Below the pieces are notes generated by a model, which saw only the letters and a list, made by a program, of their open reading frames with translations, was not told where the DNA came from and did not search any database. A program made the position numbers and the translations under genes. From a bacterium (GTDB taxonomy: Bacteria > Chloroflexota > Dormibacteria > Dormibacterales > Dormibacteraceae), in assembly GCA_004299235.1 (NCBI GenBank), contig SCQL01000002.1, positions 124,001 through 188,000 on the forward strand: a stretch of DNA of 64,000 bases. Direction: 5' to 3'. This document shows, piece by piece, positions 42,368-59,151 of the stretch (the stretch's first letter is position 1; each line of letters starts with the position of its first letter).

Positions 42368-42991
42368 ATGGGTAGGCGGACCTGGTTGGTGCTGGCCGGC
42401 GTGGCGGTGCTCGGCTCCCAGGCGGGACACCTGCTCGCCTATCAGCTCCGCTTTGGAGCGGCGGCGCAGCAGTTGCAGAGCGCGGGCGTCCACGCTTACT
42501 TCCCGGCGCTGGCCAAGACCAGCCTCGGCGTGCTTGGGTCGGCTCTCGTCGCCGGTCTTTTCATGATCGGCCTCGCTCGAATCCTGAGCGGCCGGCCGGC
42601 GATCCGGGGCGCGGGGCCGTCATGCCTGCGGCTGCTGGCCGCGCTTTACACGGTGCAGCTCGCCTTGTTCGCCGGCCAGGAGGCCGGCGAGGCCATGGCG
42701 GCCGGCGCGCCCGTCGCTTCCGCCGCTCATCTCATCCTGTGGGGGACTCTGGGCCAGCTTCCCGTCGCGGCCGTCGCCGCCATGGCTCTGTGGTGGCTGC
42801 TGGCGCGCTTCGAGTCGGCGGTGAGCGAAATCAGAGTTGCTTTCCGCATCGCGCCGCCCGCGCACCTGGTGCTCGCGGTCGAGGTCAGCATGTGGCGGAC
42901 CCCCAACGCGGCCCTCCTGCTCTCGCGCGTCGCGGGACCATCGCTCGCCAAGCGGGGGCCGCCATCCTCCTTGCGTTTCAGCTCGAACTGA
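42368..42991 (+). CDS. Membrane protein of the copper-linked set, unknown function
   Basis: 207 residues. Hydrophobic segments near 5-20, 48-70, 86-104 and 118-146 indicate four membrane helices; His21 (GSQAGHLLAYQ) and His42 are near the membrane face. The C-terminal 60 residues are soluble. No family recognised. It precedes a cupredoxin-like protein (41 bases), a large membrane protein and a CtaG homolog, so a role in copper import or oxidase assembly is inferred. Confidence 0.6.
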   Translation: MGRRTWLVLAGVAVLGSQAGHLLAYQLRFGAAAQQLQSAGVHAYFPALAKTSLGVLGSALVAGLFMIGLARILSGRPAIRGAGPSCLRLLAALYTVQLALFAGQEAGEAMAAGAPVASAAHLILWGTLGQLPVAAVAAMALWWLLARFESAVSEIRVAFRIAPPAHLVLAVEVSMWRTPNAALLLSRVAGPSLAKRGPPSSLRFSSN

Positions 42992-48265: not shown

Positions 48266-49933
48266 TTGCCATCACCTGATCTGCCCAGCCGCACGCTTTA
48301 CCAGGGCCGCGACCGAGCGGCCGCGCGCTCCTTTCTGCACGCCATCGGGCTGAGCGCCGAGGACATCGGCAAACCATTTGTGGGCGTCTCGAACTGCTGG
48401 CTCGAGACGATGCCGTGCAACTTCGGGCTGCGCGAGCTTGCCGTCCCGCTGAAGGTCGGCATTCGCGCCGCGGGCGCGAACCCGATGGAGTTCAACACGA
48501 TCGCGATCTCGGACGGCATCACGATGGGGACGGAGGGCATGAAGACCTCGCTGGTGAGCCGGGAGGTCATCGCCGATTCGATCGAGCTCGTGGCGCGCGG
48601 GCACATGTTCGATGCCCTCTGCTGCCTGTGCGCGTGCGACAAGACGATCCCGGCATCCGCGATCGCCCTGGCGCGGCTCGACCGGCCGGGGATGGTGCTG
48701 TACGGCGGCTCGATCATGCCCGGCCGCTTTCGCGGGCGGGATGTCGCGGTCGGGGATGTTTACGAAGCGATCGGCGCCGCCGCCGCGGGCAAGATCGGCG
48801 ACGCCGACCTGGCGGAGCTCGAAGCGGTGGCGTGCCCGGGCGCGGGCGCGTGCGGCGGTCAGTACACCGCGAACACGATGTCGATGGTCATGGAGGTGAT
48901 CGGTCTTTCACCGGTCGGCTTCAACTCGATCCCCGCCACCGATCCCGGCAAGCACCGCGCGGCGGAGAGCATGGGCCGCTTCGCGCTGAACGCCCTCGAG
49001 CAGGACCTGCGGCCGTCGCGGATCCTCACGCGACGCGCGTTTGACAACGCGATCGCCGCGGTGGCCGCGAGCGGCGGCTCGACGAACGCGGTGCTGCACC
49101 TGCTGGCGCTGGCCCGCGAGGCGGGGGTCGACCTGGCGATCGACGACATCGACCGCATCAGCCGGCGCACCCCGTTGCTGTGCGACCTGAAGCCGGGCGG
49201 CCGCTTCGCCGCGGTCGAGCTGCATCGGGCCGGCGGCATCGCCCTGCTCACGCGGCGCCTGCTGGACGGCGGCTACGTCGACGGCGACGCGCTGACGGTC
49301 ACCGGCCGGTCGCTGGGCGAGGAATGCGAGGCGGTGACGGAGACGGTCGGGCAGGAGGTGGTCGCCCCGCTGAGCCGCCCTCTGCGTGATGAGGGCGGGC
49401 TGGTCGTGCTGCGCGGGAACCTGGGGCCGGACGGGGCGGTGGTCAAAGTCACGCAGCACACGCCGAGGACGCACCGCGGCCCGGCCCGCGTGTTCAACCG
49501 GGAGGAGGACGCTTTCGCGGCGGTTTCGGCCGGCCGGATCAAGCCGGGGGACGTCGTCGTCATCCGTTACGAGGGACCGCGGGGCGGGCCCGGCATGCGG
49601 GAGATGCTGCTGGTGACGGCGGCCATCGTCGGCGAGGGCCTGGGCGAATCGGTGGCGATGGTCACCGACGGCCGGTTTTCGGGCGCGACCCGCGGCCTGA
49701 TGATCGGGCATGTCGCGCCGGAGGCGGCGGTGGGCGGGCCGCTGGCCGCGTTGCAGGACGGCGATGTGATCGAAATCGACGTCGAGAGCCGCCGCCTGGC
49801 GGTGGTCGAGGTCGACATCGAAGCCCGGCTGAAGGGATGGTCGCCGCCCGAGCCGCACTACCGCAAGGGCGTGCTCGCGCGTTACGCACTGCTGGTCGGC
49901 TCGGCGTCCGAAGGGGCGATGCTCAAGCCGTAG
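48266..49933 (+). CDS. ilvD: Dihydroxy-acid dehydratase
   Basis: 555 residues. Cluster cysteines are Cys51 (MPCNFGL), Cys124 (CACDKTIP) and one near 197 (GACGGQYTANTMSM), the standard 2Fe-2S/4Fe-4S ligand set. It makes the 2-oxo acids of valine and isoleucine. The start is TTG; TACGAT at 48253-48258 lies seven bases upstream, so the gene may be read from a leaderless message or from the preceding operon. A hairpin terminator follows. Confidence 0.93.
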   Translation: MPSPDLPSRTLYQGRDRAAARSFLHAIGLSAEDIGKPFVGVSNCWLETMPCNFGLRELAVPLKVGIRAAGANPMEFNTIAISDGITMGTEGMKTSLVSREVIADSIELVARGHMFDALCCLCACDKTIPASAIALARLDRPGMVLYGGSIMPGRFRGRDVAVGDVYEAIGAAAAGKIGDADLAELEAVACPGAGACGGQYTANTMSMVMEVIGLSPVGFNSIPATDPGKHRAAESMGRFALNALEQDLRPSRILTRRAFDNAIAAVAASGGSTNAVLHLLALAREAGVDLAIDDIDRISRRTPLLCDLKPGGRFAAVELHRAGGIALLTRRLLDGGYVDGDALTVTGRSLGEECEAVTETVGQEVVAPLSRPLRDEGGLVVLRGNLGPDGAVVKVTQHTPRTHRGPARVFNREEDAFAAVSAGRIKPGDVVVIRYEGPRGGPGMREMLLVTAAIVGEGLGESVAMVTDGRFSGATRGLMIGHVAPEAAVGGPLAALQDGDVIEIDVESRRLAVVEVDIEARLKGWSPPEPHYRKGVLARYALLVGSASEGAMLKP

Positions 49934-50655: not shown

Positions 50656-52083
50656 CTAGAGCAGCTCCCGCACGTCGACCAGGTGCCCGGTCACCGCCGC
50701 CGCCGCCGCCATCGGCGGGCTCATGAGGTGGGTTCGCCCACCCGTGCCCTGGCGGCCTTCGAAGTTGCGATTGCTGGTGGAGGCGCATCGCTCGCCAGGC
50801 GCCAGGATGTCCGGGTTCATGCCGAGGCACATCGAGCAGCCGGCGTTGCGCCACTCGAAGCCGGCGGCCTTGAAAATGAGGTCCAGTCCTTCGTCTTCGG
50901 CCGCTCGCTTCACCGACGCCGAGCCCGGGACGACCATCGCTCGCACCTTCGGGTGCACACGCCGCCCCTTGATCACGCGCGCCGCCGTGCGCAGGTCCTC
51001 CAGCCGCCCATTGGTGCAGGAGCCGATGAACACCCGGTCGACGGAGATGTCCGCCAGGGCCGTCCCCGGCCGGAGGTCCATGTAACGCAATGCCCGCTCA
51101 TCGGTTTCCGATCTGGGCGCCGGCACCCTGCCCGTCACCGGAGCCACCTGGGCGGGGTTGGTCCCCCACGTCACGTGCGGCTCCAGCCGCGTCGCATCGA
51201 CGGTGATCTCCTCGTCGAACGTCGCCTCGCCGTCTGTGGGCAGCGACCGCCACCAATCAAGGGCGGCTTCCCAGGCGGCTCCCTTCGGAGCGTGCGGGCG
51301 CCGCTCGAGATAGCTGAAGGTCGTGGCATCCGGCGCGACCATCCCCGCCTTCGCGCCCCACTCGATGCTCATGTTGCACACCGTCATGCGGCCCTCCAGG
51401 CTCAGGCCTCGAATCGTCGAGCCGCGGTATTCGACCAGGTAACCCTGACCTTCCGAGGTGCCGGTGCGGCCGATGAGGCTCAGCACCACGTCCTTGGCCG
51501 TGACCCCGATCGGCAGTTCGCCCTCCACCGTCACGGCGAGATCCCGCGGGCGCTTTTGCGGCAGGCACTGGGTGGCGAGGACCAGCTCGACCTCCGACGT
51601 GCCGATGCCGAATGCCAGCGCCCCGAACGCGCCGTGGGTGGAGGTGTGCGAGTCGCCACACACGATCAGCATCCCGGGCTGCGTCAAGCCCAGCTCGGGC
51701 CCGATGACGTGCACGATGCCCTGCCGCCGGCTGCCGATCTGGTGCAGCGGAATCCCCTCGCGCCGGCAGTTCTCGGCCAGGACCTCCATCTGCTTCCGCG
51801 ACAGCTCGTCCGCGGCTCGGACCCCGCCCCGGGTCGGGACGTTGTGGTCCATGGTCGCCACGGTCAGATCGGGCCGCCGGACCTTCCGGCCGGCCAGCCG
51901 CAGGCCCTCGAACGCCTGCGGCGAGGTGACCTCGTGGACCAGGTGCAGGTCGACGTACAGGAGGTCGGGCTCGCCCGTCGCCGAGCGCACGACATGTGCG
52001 TCCCACAGCTTCTGGCCGAGGGTCTTTCCTCTCCCTCCATCGGGGGCGGGGCTGGGTTGGGGGACGGACGCTGGTGCAACCAC
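50656..52083 (-). CDS. leuC: 3-isopropylmalate dehydratase, large subunit
   Basis: 475 residues. Aconitase-type 4Fe-4S ligands are visible in GSCTNGR and [17 protein letters not shown] and [13 protein letters not shown] are substrate loops. The family normally begins at the equivalent of [14 protein letters not shown] (residue 19); the 18 residues before it ([16 protein letters not shown]) are low complexity and derive from a GC-rich intergenic repeat. Only the GTG at 52083 is a standard start in frame, so either the repeat is translated or a non-standard start is used. Leads the leftward leuC-leuD operon, divergent from ilvB. Confidence 0.92.
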
Positions 52084-52207
52084 GGGAAGCCAACTCTACC
52101 GACCCCATCAGGGCCCTGGTCGTGGCAGCCGTTCAAAAGGCGGGCCCCGGATTTTGTGTCTCAGGCACAACTGGAAGCCGGCGCCGATCGCTAACATCCA
52201 TATCCAC

Positions 52208-52294
52208 ATGGTCGGCTCAGCCCGCGACTTCGTAGTCCTCCTTGGCCTCCTGGGCCTTATTGGCCTTGTCCAATCGGGGGCGCGCGCGACCTGA
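52208..52294 (+). CDS. ilvL: Leader peptide of the ilv-leu operon
   Basis: A 28-codon frame, ATG 52208 to TGA 52294. Eleven of 28 residues are Val, Leu or Ile, clustered at codons 9-21 (VVLLGLLGLIGLV). They use codons scarce in neighbouring genes: CTT three times, GTA and ATT once each. This is the design of a leader peptide whose translation rate reports the supply of charged Leu/Val/Ile tRNA. No ribosome site is seen; TAACAT at 52192-52197 could be a -10 producing an almost leaderless message. Confidence 0.8.
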   Translation: MVGSARDFVVLLGLLGLIGLVQSGARAT

Positions 52295-52352
52295 CCCAAA
52301 CCGCAAAAAAGATCGCCAAGCCCCCGACCGAAAGGCGGGGGCTTTCTTGTTT
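52274..52352 (+). terminator. Transcription attenuator of the ilv-leu operon
   Basis: Terminator: AAGCCCCCG (52318-52326) pairs with CGGGGGCTT (52336-52344), nine base pairs, followed by TCTTGTTT. Antiterminator: TCGGGGGC (52274-52281, inside the leader frame) is an exact complement of GCCCCCGA (52320-52327), the terminator's left arm. A ribosome stalled on the Val/Leu/Ile codons leaves 52274-52281 free to pair and lets transcription continue; a ribosome reaching the stop codon covers it and allows termination 10 bases before ilvB. Confidence 0.85.
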
Positions 52353-52361
52353 AAAGGAGCA

Positions 52362-54056
52362 ATGACCAAATTGACCGGAGCGGACATGGTGCTGGAAGCA
52401 CTGGAGCGCGAGCACGTCGAGCTGATCTTCGGCTACCCCGGCGGCGCCAACCTGCCCATCTACCAGCACCTGCCTGAGCACCCCAAGCTCAAGCACATCC
52501 TGGTCCGCCACGAACAGGGGGCGGCGCACATGGCCGACGGCTACGCCCGCGCCAGCGGCCGACCCGGCGTCGTCCTCGCCACCTCCGGGCCCGGCGCCCT
52601 GAACCTCGTCACCGGCCTCTGCACCGCCTACATGGACTCGGTGCCGATGATCGCGATCACCGGTCAGGTCAACAGCGCGCAGGTCGGGCTCGACGCCTTC
52701 CAGGAGTCCGACGTCATCGGCGCCACCAGCTCGGTCACCAAGCACAGCTACCTGGTGACCAGCATCGATCAGCTGCCTCGCGTGATCCACGAGGCGTTCC
52801 ACATCGCCACCACCGGCCGCCCCGGCCCGGTGCTCATCGACATCTGCAAGGACGTGCAGCTGGCCGAGGCCGACCGGGTCACTCCGGAGCGCCTGGACAT
52901 CCCCGGGTACCAGCCCAACGGCCACGTTCAGCTGGATCGCGCCCGCCAGGCCGCCGAAGCCCTGGCGAAAGCCGAGCGGCCGGTGATCCTCGCCGGGCAC
53001 GGCGTTCTGCTCAGCCACGCCGAGCCGCAGCTCCGCGAGCTGGCGGAGAAGGCCGGCGCGCCGGTCGGCACCACCCTGCTCGGCATCGGCGCGTTCCCGG
53101 TCAGCCACCCGCTCTCGCTCCACATGACCGGATTCATGGGCACGGGCTGGTGCCTCAAGGCGGTGCAGAACGCAGACGTCTTGATGATGGTCGGAATGCG
53201 CGTGGACGACCGCGTCACCGCGCGCCTCGCCGATTTCGCCCCGAAGGTCAAGACCTTCATCCACGTCGACATCGACGGCTCCGAGATGGGCAAGAACGTG
53301 CGCCCGCACATCGAGCTGGTCGCGGACGCTCGCCAGGCGCTCGAGGCGGTGCTGCCGCATGTCGGGTCGCTCGAGGAAGGTCGCGGCCGGTGGCTCGCAC
53401 AGATCGACGCCTGGCGTGAGGAGCACCCGCTTCGTTACACGCGCTCGAACGGACACCTCCAGCCGCAGGACGTGCTCATCGACATGTACCGGCGGTGCCG
53501 GAACGAGGCCGTGGTCGTCGCCGACGTCGGCCAGAACCAGATCTGGGCCGCGCTGTGGTGGAACTACGACCGCCCCGGGCTCTTCCTCAACTCCGGAGGC
53601 GCCGGGACGATGGGCTTTGCTCTGCCGGCCGCCATCGGCGCCAAGTTCGGCCGTCCGGAGCTGCCGGTGTGGTGCGTCGCCGGCGAAGGCGGGTTCGTCA
53701 TGACCGCGCAGGAGCTTTCGGTTGCGGTCGAGCACCAGCTCGACATCAAGATCGTCCTCCTCAACAACTTGTCGCTGGGCATGGTCCGCCAGTTCCAGGA
53801 CGACTTCTACGGCGGCGTGCGGTCGCAGGTCGACCTCACCCACATGCCCGAATTCGTCAAGCTGGCCGAGGCGTACGGATTGCCGGCGGTCCGGGTCGAC
53901 AAGCTGTCGGACGTCGGGCCCGCGATGGACGCGGCCGAGCGCACCCAAGGACCGTTCCTGATCGACTTCCGCATCGACCCGGAGGCGAACGTCTACCCGA
54001 TCGTGCCTTTGGGTAAGGGCCTCAACGACTTCTGGGAGGCGCCGGAACATGACTGA
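52362..54056 (+). CDS. ilvB: Acetolactate synthase, catalytic subunit
   Basis: 564 residues from ATG 52362 behind AAAGGAG; the frame is open upstream but only through the attenuator. Catalytic Glu51 in RHEQGAAHMADGYARASG, the thiamine diphosphate motif from GEGGFVMTAQELSV to VLLNN, and the FAD-binding middle domain (HMTGFMGTGWCLKA). Condenses pyruvate (or 2-oxobutyrate) with pyruvate. First structural gene of ilvB-ilvN-ilvC-leuA-pheA. Ends within ilvN (8-base overlap). Confidence 0.95.
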   Translation: MTKLTGADMVLEALEREHVELIFGYPGGANLPIYQHLPEHPKLKHILVRHEQGAAHMADGYARASGRPGVVLATSGPGALNLVTGLCTAYMDSVPMIAITGQVNSAQVGLDAFQESDVIGATSSVTKHSYLVTSIDQLPRVIHEAFHIATTGRPGPVLIDICKDVQLAEADRVTPERLDIPGYQPNGHVQLDRARQAAEALAKAERPVILAGHGVLLSHAEPQLRELAEKAGAPVGTTLLGIGAFPVSHPLSLHMTGFMGTGWCLKAVQNADVLMMVGMRVDDRVTARLADFAPKVKTFIHVDIDGSEMGKNVRPHIELVADARQALEAVLPHVGSLEEGRGRWLAQIDAWREEHPLRYTRSNGHLQPQDVLIDMYRRCRNEAVVVADVGQNQIWAALWWNYDRPGLFLNSGGAGTMGFALPAAIGAKFGRPELPVWCVAGEGGFVMTAQELSVAVEHQLDIKIVLLNNLSLGMVRQFQDDFYGGVRSQVDLTHMPEFVKLAEAYGLPAVRVDKLSDVGPAMDAAERTQGPFLIDFRIDPEANVYPIVPLGKGLNDFWEAPEHD

Positions 54057-54522
54057 CCAGGAACGAGTCCGCATCCTGTCGGTCGAGGTCCTGAATGGCT
54101 CGAACACGCTGAGCAAGGTGTCGGGGCTGATCCGCCGCCGCGGGTTTCACGTCCGCTCCATCTCCGTCGGCCCCAGCCGCGAGCCCGGGCGCTCCCGCAT
54201 GACCCTGACCGTCGACTCCGGCCACGCCGGAGCCGACCAGGTGCGCAAGCAGCTCGAACGATTGGTCGAGGTGGTCGCGGTCGAAGACCTCACGGGTTAT
54301 GAGGTGCACAGCCGCGAGCTGATCGTCGCCAGGGTCGCGGCATCAGAGGTTGGCGGGCTGCTGGAGCGCGGCGCCAGGGTGCTGGACGCGGGCCCTGGCG
54401 GCACGACGATCGAGTTTGCCGGCGAAGACAAGGACGTCGGCGATTTCGTCGACGAGTTGATGCGACACGGAATTCTTGACGTGGTCCGATCCGGGCCCGT
54501 CGTCATGAGGAGAACAGCATGA
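54049..54522 (+). CDS. ilvN: Acetolactate synthase, regulatory subunit
   Basis: 157 residues. N-terminal ACT domain ([35 protein letters not shown]) that binds valine, and a C-terminal domain. Overlaps ilvB by 8 bases and ilvC by 4 (ATGA). Confidence 0.92.
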
Positions 54523-55507
54523 AGATCCACTATGACCGCGACTGCCCGCCCAGCCTGGGGGAGCCGGTGGCAGTGCTCGGTTACGGCAGCCAGGGCCGGG
54601 CCCATGCGCTGAATTTGCGCGACAGCGGCGAGGACGTCCGGGTCGGCCTGTACCCCGGCAGCAAATCATTCGAACGGGCTAAGGCAGACGGCGTACGCGC
54701 TCTCGAGGTGTCGGCGGCGGTGGCGGAGGCGTCGGTCGTGATGGTGCTGACGCCGGATGCGGGGCAGGGCAAGCTCTTCCGCGATTCGATCGCCGAGCAG
54801 CTGAAGCCGGGCTCGATGCTGATGTTTGCGCACGGGTTCTCGATCCATTTCGCCCAGATCAAGCCGGAAGCCGACATCGACGTCGCGATGATCGCGCCGA
54901 AGGGCCCCGGCCACCTCGTCCGCAGCACCTACCTGCAGGGCCAGGGCGTGCCCGCCTTGATCGCGATCCACCAGAACGCCACCGGGCGGGTCTGGGAGCG
55001 GGCGCTGGCATATGCGCGGGCGCTGGGCGCCGGGCGCGCCGGCATCCTCGAGACCAGTTTCAAGGAAGAGACCGAAACCGACCTGTTCGGTGAGCAGGCG
55101 GTGCTCTGCGGCGGCATCAGCTCGCTGGTCAAGACCGGCTTTGAGACGCTGGTCGAAGCCGGTTACCAGCCCGAGGTCGCGTACTTCGAGGTCCTGCACG
55201 AGCTGAAGCTCATCGTCGACCTGATGTACCGGGGCGGCCTGGCCTTCATGCGCTACTCCGTCTCGGACACGGCCGAGTACGGCGACTACGTCTCCGGGCC
55301 GCGCGTGATCGACTCTCACGTGCGTGAGCGAATGCGACAGGTGCTGCACGAGATCCAGGACGGCAGCTTCGCCGAGCGCTGGCTGGACGAGAACTCAAAC
55401 GGACGGGAGGGCTTCCTCACCATGCGGCGAAACGACGCCGAGCACCCCATTGAGAAGGTCGGGCGCGAGCTGCGCTCGATGATGACCTGGTTGGAGCCGG
55501 TGGAGAA

Positions 55508-55511
<4 letters not shown>
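54519..55511 (+). CDS. ilvC: Ketol-acid reductoisomerase, class I
   Basis: 330 residues. Rossmann motif [17 protein letters not shown], cofactor loop [11 protein letters not shown] (two serines fit NADPH use), [18 protein letters not shown], and metal-binding Glu/Asp in [13 protein letters not shown]. Overlaps leuA by 4 bases. Confidence 0.95.
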
Positions 55512-56793
<1,282 letters not shown>

Positions 56794-56797
<4 letters not shown>

Positions 56798-57612
56798 GGA
56801 TCGCCTACCAGGGGGAGCCTGGGGCATACTCGGACGAGGCCGTGGCGGCGCTCTTCCCCGACGGGGAGGCGGTCGGGTTTCCGACCTTTCGCCAGACCTT
56901 CGACGCCCTCACGCTGGGGGCGGTGGACGCTGCCGTCATGCCGGTCGAGAACAGCAGTGCCGGCGTCGTGCAGGAGGTGTCGGACCTCCTGTGGGAGCTG
57001 CCGGGTCTGCGAGTGGTGCGTGAGCACGTGCAGCCGGTGCAGCACTGTCTGCTCGGCTGGCCGGGACCGGTGGAGCGGGCGCTCTCTCATCCGCAGGCGC
57101 TGGCCCAGTGCAACCGCTACCTGCACTCAAGGCAGATCCGCTCGGTGGCGTTTCACGACACCGCCGGAGCTGCGCGAGCCGTGGCGGAGCAGCGCCAGCC
57201 GGGCACGGCCGCGATCGCCAGCCGGGCGGCCGCGGCCCGGTACGGCCTGTACGTGCTGGCGGAGGCCATCCAGGACGATGCCGAGAACCGGACCCGGTTC
57301 GTCGTCGTCGAGAAGGGGTCGCCATCGCGTCCTCGTGACGCCGGCCCCGCATCGAAATGCTCGCTGGCGTTCGTCGCCGCCCACCGGCCCGGCAGCCTGG
57401 CCCAGGCCCTCGACTGCTTCGCGCGCCGGAGCGTCAACCTGACCAGGCTGGACAGCCGGCCGATGCTCGGCCGGCCGTTCGAGTATCGCTTCTACCTGGA
57501 CTTCGCCATCAATGGAGACTCGTCCGCCCCGGCCGCTGCCGAGGCGGCGCTCAACGACCTGGAAAAGGCGAGCGCGGAGATCAAGCTGTTCGGGACGTAC
57601 CCGGCCGCCTGA
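56794..57612 (+). CDS. pheA: Prephenate dehydratase
   Basis: 272 residues from GTG 56794, which overlaps the leuA stop (GTGA). IAYQGEPGAYSDEAVAALF opens the catalytic domain; the catalytic TRF triplet is in ENRTRFVVVEK; from about 190 an ACT domain (FVAAHRPGSLAQALDCFARR, SRPMLGRPFEYRFYLD) senses phenylalanine. It makes phenylpyruvate. Its placement at the end of the leucine/valine operon puts phenylalanine synthesis under the ilv attenuator. No chorismate mutase domain. Confidence 0.93.
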
Positions 57613-57756: not shown

Positions 57757-59151
57757 GTGGCGAAGGGGAATAAGAAGGCACCTGCCGAAGATGACGCGCG
57801 GCCGACGGCGCCACGCCGTCGCCTGCCGGGTGTCGCGCTCAAGCCGGGCACGGTCAAGCAGGCCCGCCTTGAAGCGGGCCTGAGCCTGGCGAAGGTCGGC
57901 AAAGGACACGTCACCGCGCCCGCGATCTACCTGATCGAGACCGGCCGGACACGCCCTTCGATGCCCACGCTCGAACACATCGCGCAACGCACGGGCAAGC
58001 CGGTCGAGTTTTTTCTCGCCGATCCCGCCAGCTCCGCGGACGAGAGCCGAGCCGCGCATGCGGAGCTCGAAGCCATGGTCGGGGCGGGGCGATACGCCGA
58101 AGCCGTCGTCCTCGGCAAGCGCCTGCTGAATCTGGGCCCGTCCGCCTACCGGCCCGGAAGGATTCGCTATTACCTGGCCCAGGCGTACCTGCAGCTCGCC
58201 CAGCCGGACGAGGCGGTGGCTCTGCTCGCGGAAGCGCGCGCTCACTTCATCGCCGTCAACGACGAGGTGATGCTTGCCGAGTGCCTGGGATCGGAGGCGG
58301 CGCTCGCCTCTTTCATGCAACGGCCGGATGCGCTGTCGCTGGCTGAGCAGGCGCTGGCCGTCTGCCGGAGGCTCAAGCCCGTTCCGCGGCTCATGGAAGC
58401 CCGACTGCTCGGCATCCAGGCCACCGCCCACGTCGCCAATCGCGAGTGGGACAGGGCGATCGAGACCTATCAGGCCGCGATCGGGGCGGCAGGCCCGCTG
58501 TTCGACCTGAGGCGCGTGGCGAAGATGTACGCCGAGCTGGGCTCCACTTACCGCGAGCAGGGCCAGGTGGACCTGGCGGCCAGGTACGCCACGAGGTCGA
58601 TGGCCCTGCTCGACGTCCTGCGGGATCGAGTTGCGCTCGCGCGCTCGGAGAACAACCTCGGATTGATCCTGGCCGCAAGGGGAGACGCCGCCGCGGCCAA
58701 GCAGCACCTCGATAAGTCGAAGGAGCTGAGCCCGGAATCGGAGCTCGAGGTCGGTCGCAGCCACGTGCTGCTCGCCCTGTGCGAGCTTTGCCTGCAGCAG
58801 GGCCGCGTGCAGCAGGCGCACGAGTTGGCCGAACAGGCGCTGGGGTTGGCCGAGCGCCTGCAGGAGGGCCTGAGCGTCGCCGAGGCCCACGTTTGGCTGG
58901 GACGAATCGCCCACCAGCTGGGCCGCACCGAAACCGTCGATCGGGAGTTCGAGCTCGCGATTCGGGGCCTCGAGCAGCTGGGCGCGCGTGAGCGGCTGCT
59001 CCAGTGTCACGGCATCTACGCCGAGATCCTGGAGGGTCGCGGCGAGCTGGCCAGCGCTTACGCCCACATGAAGAAGGCGCTGCAGGCGAGCCAGCCCGAC
59101 CTGCTGCAGGGGCAGGGCCCGGACGCAGAGGAGCGCCTCAACTCCGCCTGA
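57757..59151 (+). CDS. XRE-type helix-turn-helix protein with tetratricopeptide repeats
   Basis: 464 residues. A basic N-terminal tail precedes an HTH at about 32-85 (KQARLEAGLSLAKVGKGHVT, then PAIYLIETGRTRPSMPTLEH), followed by about 350 residues of TPR-like helical pairs (AVVLGKRLLNLGPSAYRPGR, AKMYAELGSTYREQGQVDLA and further copies). Proteins of this plan sense peptides or partner proteins through the TPR groove, as in RRNPP regulators, but no small peptide gene is seen next to it. It separates the ilv-leu-pheA operon from the 2-oxoacid dehydrogenase gene and might control one of them. Confidence 0.8.
   Translation: MAKGNKKAPAEDDARPTAPRRRLPGVALKPGTVKQARLEAGLSLAKVGKGHVTAPAIYLIETGRTRPSMPTLEHIAQRTGKPVEFFLADPASSADESRAAHAELEAMVGAGRYAEAVVLGKRLLNLGPSAYRPGRIRYYLAQAYLQLAQPDEAVALLAEARAHFIAVNDEVMLAECLGSEAALASFMQRPDALSLAEQALAVCRRLKPVPRLMEARLLGIQATAHVANREWDRAIETYQAAIGAAGPLFDLRRVAKMYAELGSTYREQGQVDLAARYATRSMALLDVLRDRVALARSENNLGLILAARGDAAAAKQHLDKSKELSPESELEVGRSHVLLALCELCLQQGRVQQAHELAEQALGLAERLQEGLSVAEAHVWLGRIAHQLGRTETVDREFELAIRGLEQLGARERLLQCHGIYAEILEGRGELASAYAHMKKALQASQPDLLQGQGPDAEERLNSA

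Follow-up and report, generated by a model that had tools for sequence, protein, structure and literature searches.

How does a bacterium of the Dormibacteria control the entry of RNA polymerase into its genes for branched-chain amino acid synthesis? The question is raised by a short leader region that precedes an ilvB-ilvN-ilvC-leuA-pheA gene cluster in a genome of 2.87 Mb (100 contigs), which, among named genomes, is closest to MAGs of Dormibacteria (Candidatus Dormiibacterota; 'Chloroflexi bacterium' soil MAGs), a lineage placed in the Chloroflexota by GTDB. The window, i.e., the whole stretch of DNA that was analysed, comprises 64,000 nucleotides (positions 124001-188000 of contig 2). A preliminary description had proposed that a ribosome-mediated attenuator lies before the cluster, and the reading frame with its control codons, the two alternative hairpins, covariation, spacing and the surrounding genes, all presented below, support that proposal. 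The region is, with high probability, a ribosome-mediated attenuator of branched-chain amino acid synthesis acting on a leaderless transcript.

The leader region and the downstream operon

The features of the locus are as follows (positions in the window).

52153-52170, no strand assigned: palindromic site TTTGTG-N7-CACAA, probable activator site, centre about -42 from the predicted transcription start
52192-52197, + strand: -10 hexamer TAACAT, ending 10 nt before the ATG; predicted start at about 52204-52208
52208-52294, + strand: leader peptide ORF MVGSARDFVVLLGLLGLIGLVQSGARAT, 28 codons, 11 of them Val/Leu/Ile, no Shine-Dalgarno (SD) sequence; ATG at 52208 to TGA at 52294
52274-52281, + strand: 5' strand of the antiterminator outer stem, TCGGGGGC, within the leader ORF (exact 8-mer)
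52286-52289, + strand: 5' strand of the antiterminator inner stem, GCGA, at the end of the leader ORF (from folds and relatives)
52313-52316, + strand: 3' strand of the antiterminator inner stem, TCGC (from folds and relatives)
52320-52327, + strand: 3' strand of the antiterminator outer stem, GCCCCCGA, complement of TCGGGGGC and common to the terminator 5' arm
52318-52344, + strand: intrinsic terminator hairpin AAGCCCCCG..CGGGGGCTT, about -21.7 kcal/mol by folding
52343-52352, + strand: T-rich tail TTTCTTGTTT after the terminator, read in the sequence
52353-52359, + strand: SD sequence AAAGGAG of ilvB, read in the sequence
52362-54056, + strand: ilvB, acetolactate synthase large subunit, first regulated gene (TIGR00118; start ATG at 52362)
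54049-54522, + strand: ilvN, acetolactate synthase small subunit (TIGR00119)
54519-55511, + strand: ilvC, ketol-acid reductoisomerase (TIGR00465)
55508-56797, + strand: leuA, 2-isopropylmalate synthase, no C-terminal regulatory domain recognised (NCBIfam/Pfam)
56794-57612, + strand: pheA, prephenate dehydratase (PF00800)

The gene order first read from the sequence was borne out by the NCBIfam and Pfam matches. Neighbouring genes of the cluster overlap by 4-8 bases each; leuCD is divergent and lies upstream of the leader, and ilvD is more distant. The LeuA protein (window 55508-56797) has 429 residues, and its only Pfam domains are HMGL-like and HCS_D2. As no C-terminal regulatory domain is recognised, the enzyme may not be subject to leucine feedback, in which case attenuation would carry more weight.

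Distribution of the leader among relatives

IlvB-guided and DNA-guided searches yielded 32 distinct leaders that share one layout (L056 and L123 were set aside), and two further leaders before a TPP enzyme brought the set to 34. Thirty precede ilvB, two precede leuA (in G008 and G002; L114 and L118) and two precede an IlvB-like TPP enzyme (in G008 and G015; L115 and L128). Nearly all genera of family f1 have the attenuator before ilvB. A model-based search of 400 Chloroflexota genomes retrieved it in most sampled genomes of this family, with few other matches, and found no copy in the sister families. The matches L149, L152 and L158 were discarded as chance, their flanks having no IlvB match. 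Comparison with relatives, which the preliminary description had called for, showed that leader frame, control codons, both hairpins and spacing are conserved in the 34 leaders.

In the two loci with the TPP enzyme (L115, from 1105; L128, from 1177), the apparent 3' end of a leuA gene lies upstream. When L115 was scanned, no NCBIfam model above cut-off was found for its IlvB-like enzyme.

The leader transcript is predicted to start at the leader codon

The leader had been described as seemingly lacking a ribosome binding site and as possibly leaderless, and the family supports both points. In 34 of 34 leaders a TANNNT hexamer ends 9-12 nt upstream of the start codon, and an SD-like sequence upstream of this codon was found in none of the 32 leaders checked. 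The same TANNNT test applied to internal ATG/GTG codons of window genes gave 4 hits out of 880. As the -10 element sits where a transcript beginning at the start codon would need it and SD sequences are missing, the leader transcript looks leaderless in all copies. The accompanying remark that a leaderless leader would be unusual for attenuation did not hold: the S. lividans ilvL leader, among others, is described as leaderless (PMC8079986), and transcription of the C. diphtheriae ilvB leader was mapped to its first codon (PMC5784534).

Similar arrangements were observed elsewhere in the window. The leuC gene (50656-52083, - strand) has the hexamer TAGAGT 9 nt before its GTG at 52083, and TANNNT lies 7-11 nt before the first possible start in leuC, ilvD and others; window genes with the hexamer near their start are 50656-52083 (-), 42368-42991 (+), 48266-49933 (+) and 57757-59151 (+). 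This suggests that leaderless transcripts are common in the host organism.

Further upstream, the sequence TTTGT (CTTGT in some leaders) is found 39-40 nt before the -10 hexamer in 34 of 34 leaders, and its CACAA partner is present in 20 of the 32 checked. The exact pattern TTTGTG-N6-8-CACAA has a single match in its own genome, the leader site, so that no regulon can be derived from it. Class II activators bind at about -42 from the transcription start, and the palindrome near this position probably binds an activator or another regulator.

The -35 hexamer of the leader promoter is poor. The TANNNT hexamer could therefore be misread and transcription could start further upstream, the leader then being translated from a 5' untranslated region by an SD-independent route, all the more as the transcription start is itself a prediction. 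Such an origin, which is compatible with attenuation and overlaps our preferred explanation, appears improbable given the invariant 9-12 nt placement of the hexamer, the fixed TTTGT site 39-40 nt before it, the rarity of TANNNT before internal start-like codons and the lack of SD sequences in the leaders checked. We therefore retain the leaderless start as the preferred reading. A simple promoter/terminator scan returned nothing at the leader, because its rule admits only loops of 3-8 nt and the promoter did not fit it either.

The leader ORF is under selection and is rich in rare control codons

The ORF lies between the promoter and the first gene and is rich in codons for the end products, as expected of an attenuator. 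Both its size and its 11 Val/Leu/Ile codons were found as first described, and codon counts of the genes called in the window confirmed that GTA, CTT and ATT are locally rare: GTA represents 1.2% of the Val codons, CTT 5.6% of the Leu codons and ATT 5.4% of the Ile codons. In 20 related leaders, GTA accounts for 24 of 43 Val codons, ATT for 25 of 31 Ile codons and CTT for 48 of 135 Leu codons; these figures are counts over related, non-independent sequences and not probabilities. The pN/pS value of the leader is 0.61 in the ORF frame, whereas the two alternative frames give 0.94 and 1.95, and indels in the ORF among relatives come in multiples of 3. Comparison of the three frames indicates that purifying selection acts in the ORF frame. 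The peptide core VLLLGLLGLIG..(S/T)GARA(T/N/S) is conserved among near relatives and diverges in the more distant leaders.

The ORF and the terminator might nevertheless be real without any control by stalling at Val, Leu or Ile codons, the peptide being vestigial, or a protein or the general translation rate acting as the regulator, as has been suggested for ilvB of S. coelicolor. There are precedents: mutations of upstream control codons in the S. coelicolor ilvB leader had no effect (PMC1262725), so that anatomy alone does not prove the mechanism, and in a Corynebacterium ilvB uORF one Val codon could be changed to Glu without loss (PMC10272879). However, the rare Val/Leu/Ile codons and their distance to the antiterminator strand are strongly conserved in the 34 leaders, and a vestigial peptide fits poorly with purifying selection in its frame. 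We consider this explanation still less probable than an upstream start, and favour control by stalling at the Val/Leu/Ile codons.

The same conserved peptide-coding frame speaks against a riboswitch or a T-box at this place. T-boxes are indeed present before ilvB in sister families (L117, L120), but Rfam, at gathering and at permissive thresholds, gave no relevant match in the window, the segment 52100-52420 gave only chance matches even at an E-value of 10, and the T-box covariance model (RF00230) had no match in the window. It is very improbable that the region is anything of this kind and not a leader-peptide attenuator.

Two alternative hairpins are conserved, and the antiterminator covaries

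An intrinsic terminator with a T-rich tail lies before the first structural gene and is conserved in the 34 leaders, and an antiterminator (outer stem of 7-10 bp, inner stem of 4 bp) overlaps both the 3' portion of the ORF and the terminator 5' arm. In the window, the terminator stem AAGCCCCCG/CGGGGGCTT has 9 bp and is lengthened by CC/GG across one bulged A; its U-tract is interrupted, which counts against the attenuator reading. The exact 8-base strand that competes with the 9-bp terminator stem was present where first reported. The antiterminator is nevertheless larger than described, as the inner GCGA:TCGC stem, conserved in nearly all relatives, had been missed. All 34 leaders can form both the terminator (-15 to -31 kcal/mol) and the antiterminator (-22 to -42 kcal/mol).

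An 8-nt complement to the terminator arm arises by chance in 1.9% of random 87-nt stretches of the GC-rich window and in 5.9% of leader codon shuffles, so that a single sequence is weak evidence. We therefore rely on the family. In an alignment of 33 sequences, 93.8% of the antiterminator pair cells hold a standard pair. Changes on both sides occur in 17 cells, vs 5.0 +/- 1.6 in shuffles (0 of 500 as high) and at most 2 in slid controls. The outer closing pairs across the alignment are GC (8), UA (8) and AU (2). The alignment was built with the antiterminator structure in the model, which favours the structure; shuffle controls, slide controls and unaided folds all agree with it. Among close relatives alone most of the pairs never vary, and the covariation is seen after adding distant members. 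Conservation in 34 distinct leaders together with covariation secures the antiterminator, and the same covariation and conservation over many genera refute the idea, whose probability is close to nil, that the 3' hairpin is an ordinary terminator to which the ORF and the antiterminator match by chance in GC-rich DNA.

Ribosome position sets the predicted choice between the hairpins

In the folding check suggested in the preliminary description, both alternative hairpins can form, and snapshots of the nascent RNA switch with ribosome position. In this nascent-RNA model, the terminator 5' arm has emerged and the 3' arm is not yet transcribed, and the ribosome hides everything up to 14 nt past the first base of the A-site codon. 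For the window leader, the antiterminator probability is 1.0 with the A-site at codons 1-19 and 0.78 at codon 20, and it falls to 0.02 at codon 21 and to 0 from codon 22 to the stop. In the model, the spacing thus switches the antiterminator on with the A-site up to codon 20 and off from codon 21. With a ribosome at the stop codon the probability is 0.00 in 34 of 34 leaders, and nearly all Val/Leu/Ile codons of the 34 leaders fall in the antiterminator-permissive range.

Equilibrium folds of the ribosome-masked RNA gave no clean switch, the terminator being favoured in many relatives despite an upstream ribosome. As the terminator often wins at equilibrium, the choice has to be made kinetically, in line with the classical model; a kinetic decision is an assumption of the nascent-RNA model. 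When no ribosome is present, the nascent fold mostly favours the antiterminator and the equilibrium fold favours the terminator. The nascent fold would mean readthrough when the leader is not translated.

Other leaders before ilvB in the Chloroflexota

We also observed other types of leader before ilvB in the phylum. T-box-like leaders precede the gene in two members of family f2, below the gathering score (L117 and L120; E-values 5e-6 and 1e-5). Independent leader-peptide attenuators were found before ilvB in families f21 (L155, L157), f24 (L153) and f59 (L156). The leader ORFs of L155 and L157 have about 67-70 codons, longer than usual leader peptides, with a conserved N-terminal RRxVAxVVTxDGRRVxVPL joined to an LLGLLGLIG-like control tail. 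The L153 attenuator consists of a leader, MNSLLLVVVVLALLVLSGEDQRPFRMATCQA, and a terminator; its CCCGTTTAGGA strand is complementary, over 11 bases without a mismatch, to TCCTAAACGGG of the terminator hairpin.

In five genomes of f59 (L156, L160, L161, L162, L163), a T-box and a leader-peptide attenuator lie in series before ilvB. The order is a T-box (RF00230, 106-147 bits, above the gathering score) with its own terminator, a Val/Leu/Ile-rich ORF, a second terminator and ilvB. A clear antiterminator strand is seen in the second half of the L156, L161 and L163 leaders, and the T-box specifier is likely CUC (Leu). A single RNA thus appears to carry two starvation sensors of different types. 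That one gene can switch between a T-box and a leader peptide is already known (PMC2965389); a partial literature search turned up no account of both in series.

A conserved structured RNA (GGCTTACCGG...CCACGACCGNATGGCGTGG...) was also found before ilvB in other Chloroflexota (L029:2830-2985, L032:2780-2935, L036:2794-2950, L063:2834-2985, L075:2833-2985, L078:2828-2982). Compensatory changes occur in 8 of its 34 pairs, it has no Rfam match, and a model search located it in 3 of 400 genomes, all of one family. It is possibly a riboswitch-like element.

Discussion

Judged by testable criteria, the Dormibacteria ilvB leader is very likely a ribosome-mediated attenuator. Its frame, codons, both hairpins, covariation, spacing and operon are established by sequence comparison.

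It resembles the ilvB attenuators of Actinobacteria (C. glutamicum ilvBNC, C. diphtheriae, S. lividans ilvL, M. tuberculosis ilvB1NC and the ilvB-II uORF motif) in its Val/Leu/Ile-rich leader and its competing antiterminator and intrinsic terminator. Candidate ilvB leaders in that phylum have been listed (PMC1262725); the C. glutamicum attenuator has mutational support (PMC11857589), and M. tuberculosis ilvB1NC (PMC13236596) and the Corynebacterium ilvB-II uORF (PMC10272879) are functional relatives. The Dormibacteria leader differs in phylum, in peptide length (about 21-29 residues vs 13-17) and sequence, in its two-part antiterminator and conserved upstream palindrome, in having leuA and pheA in the same operon and in matching no Rfam family. 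With the E. coli ilvBN, ilvGMEDA, leu and trp attenuators it shares the race between ribosome and polymerase and the masking of the antiterminator strand by a ribosome at the stop codon, and with leu the use of rare control codons; however, the E. coli leaders have an SD sequence and a 5' untranslated region, whereas here there is no SD sequence and the predicted 5' untranslated region is a few bases at most. The ilvB-OMG and Leptospira ilvB motifs likewise place a uORF rich in branched-chain amino acid codons before ilvB, with proposed attenuation (PMC10272879), but they are also rich in threonine codons. T-box leaders of ilv and leu operons, like those before ilvB in L117, L120 and f59, sense the same shortage but bind tRNA directly; none was detected in the Dormibacteria window.

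For the ilvB leader, we infer the transcription start, stalling, termination and activator as follows. RNA polymerase would start at about 52204-52208, placing leader codon 1 at the 5' end or a few bases from it, and the leader would be translated without an SD sequence; the conserved palindrome near -42 is probably bound by an activator or another regulator. Under a shortage of charged Leu, Val or Ile tRNA, the ribosome would stall on the GTA/CTC/CTT/ATT run (codons 9-20), leaving TCGGGGGC and GCGA free to pair with TCGC and GCCCCCGA. The antiterminator would take up the terminator 5' arm, and the polymerase would continue into ilvB-ilvN-ilvC-leuA-pheA. With the amino acids in ample supply, the ribosome would reach the stop codon and mask the antiterminator strand, the 52318-52344 hairpin would form and transcription would end.

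No earlier account of leader-peptide attenuation in Dormibacteria or Chloroflexota came up in a partial literature search. The Dormibacteria leader adds a further phylum to the range of this textbook mechanism, the comparative evidence being unusually complete, and these leaders support leaderless initiation as sufficient for attenuation outside the Actinobacteria. We propose more tentatively, giving it slightly less than an even chance, that Dormibacteria use a fixed module (the -42 palindrome, a 5'-terminal AUG without an SD sequence, a rare-codon leader and a two-part antiterminator) placed before ilvB, leuA and the IlvB-like enzyme, and that elsewhere in the phylum an attenuator is stacked behind a T-box, with two starvation sensors in series on one RNA. 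If so, leaderless and SD-driven attenuation of the same gene would be directly comparable. The window leader is itself modest, and the tandem f59 leaders are of greater interest. The family set allows the study of codon choice, spacing and hairpin competition, and the related lineages present one gene, ilvB, that appears to be under the control of a leader peptide, a T-box, or both.
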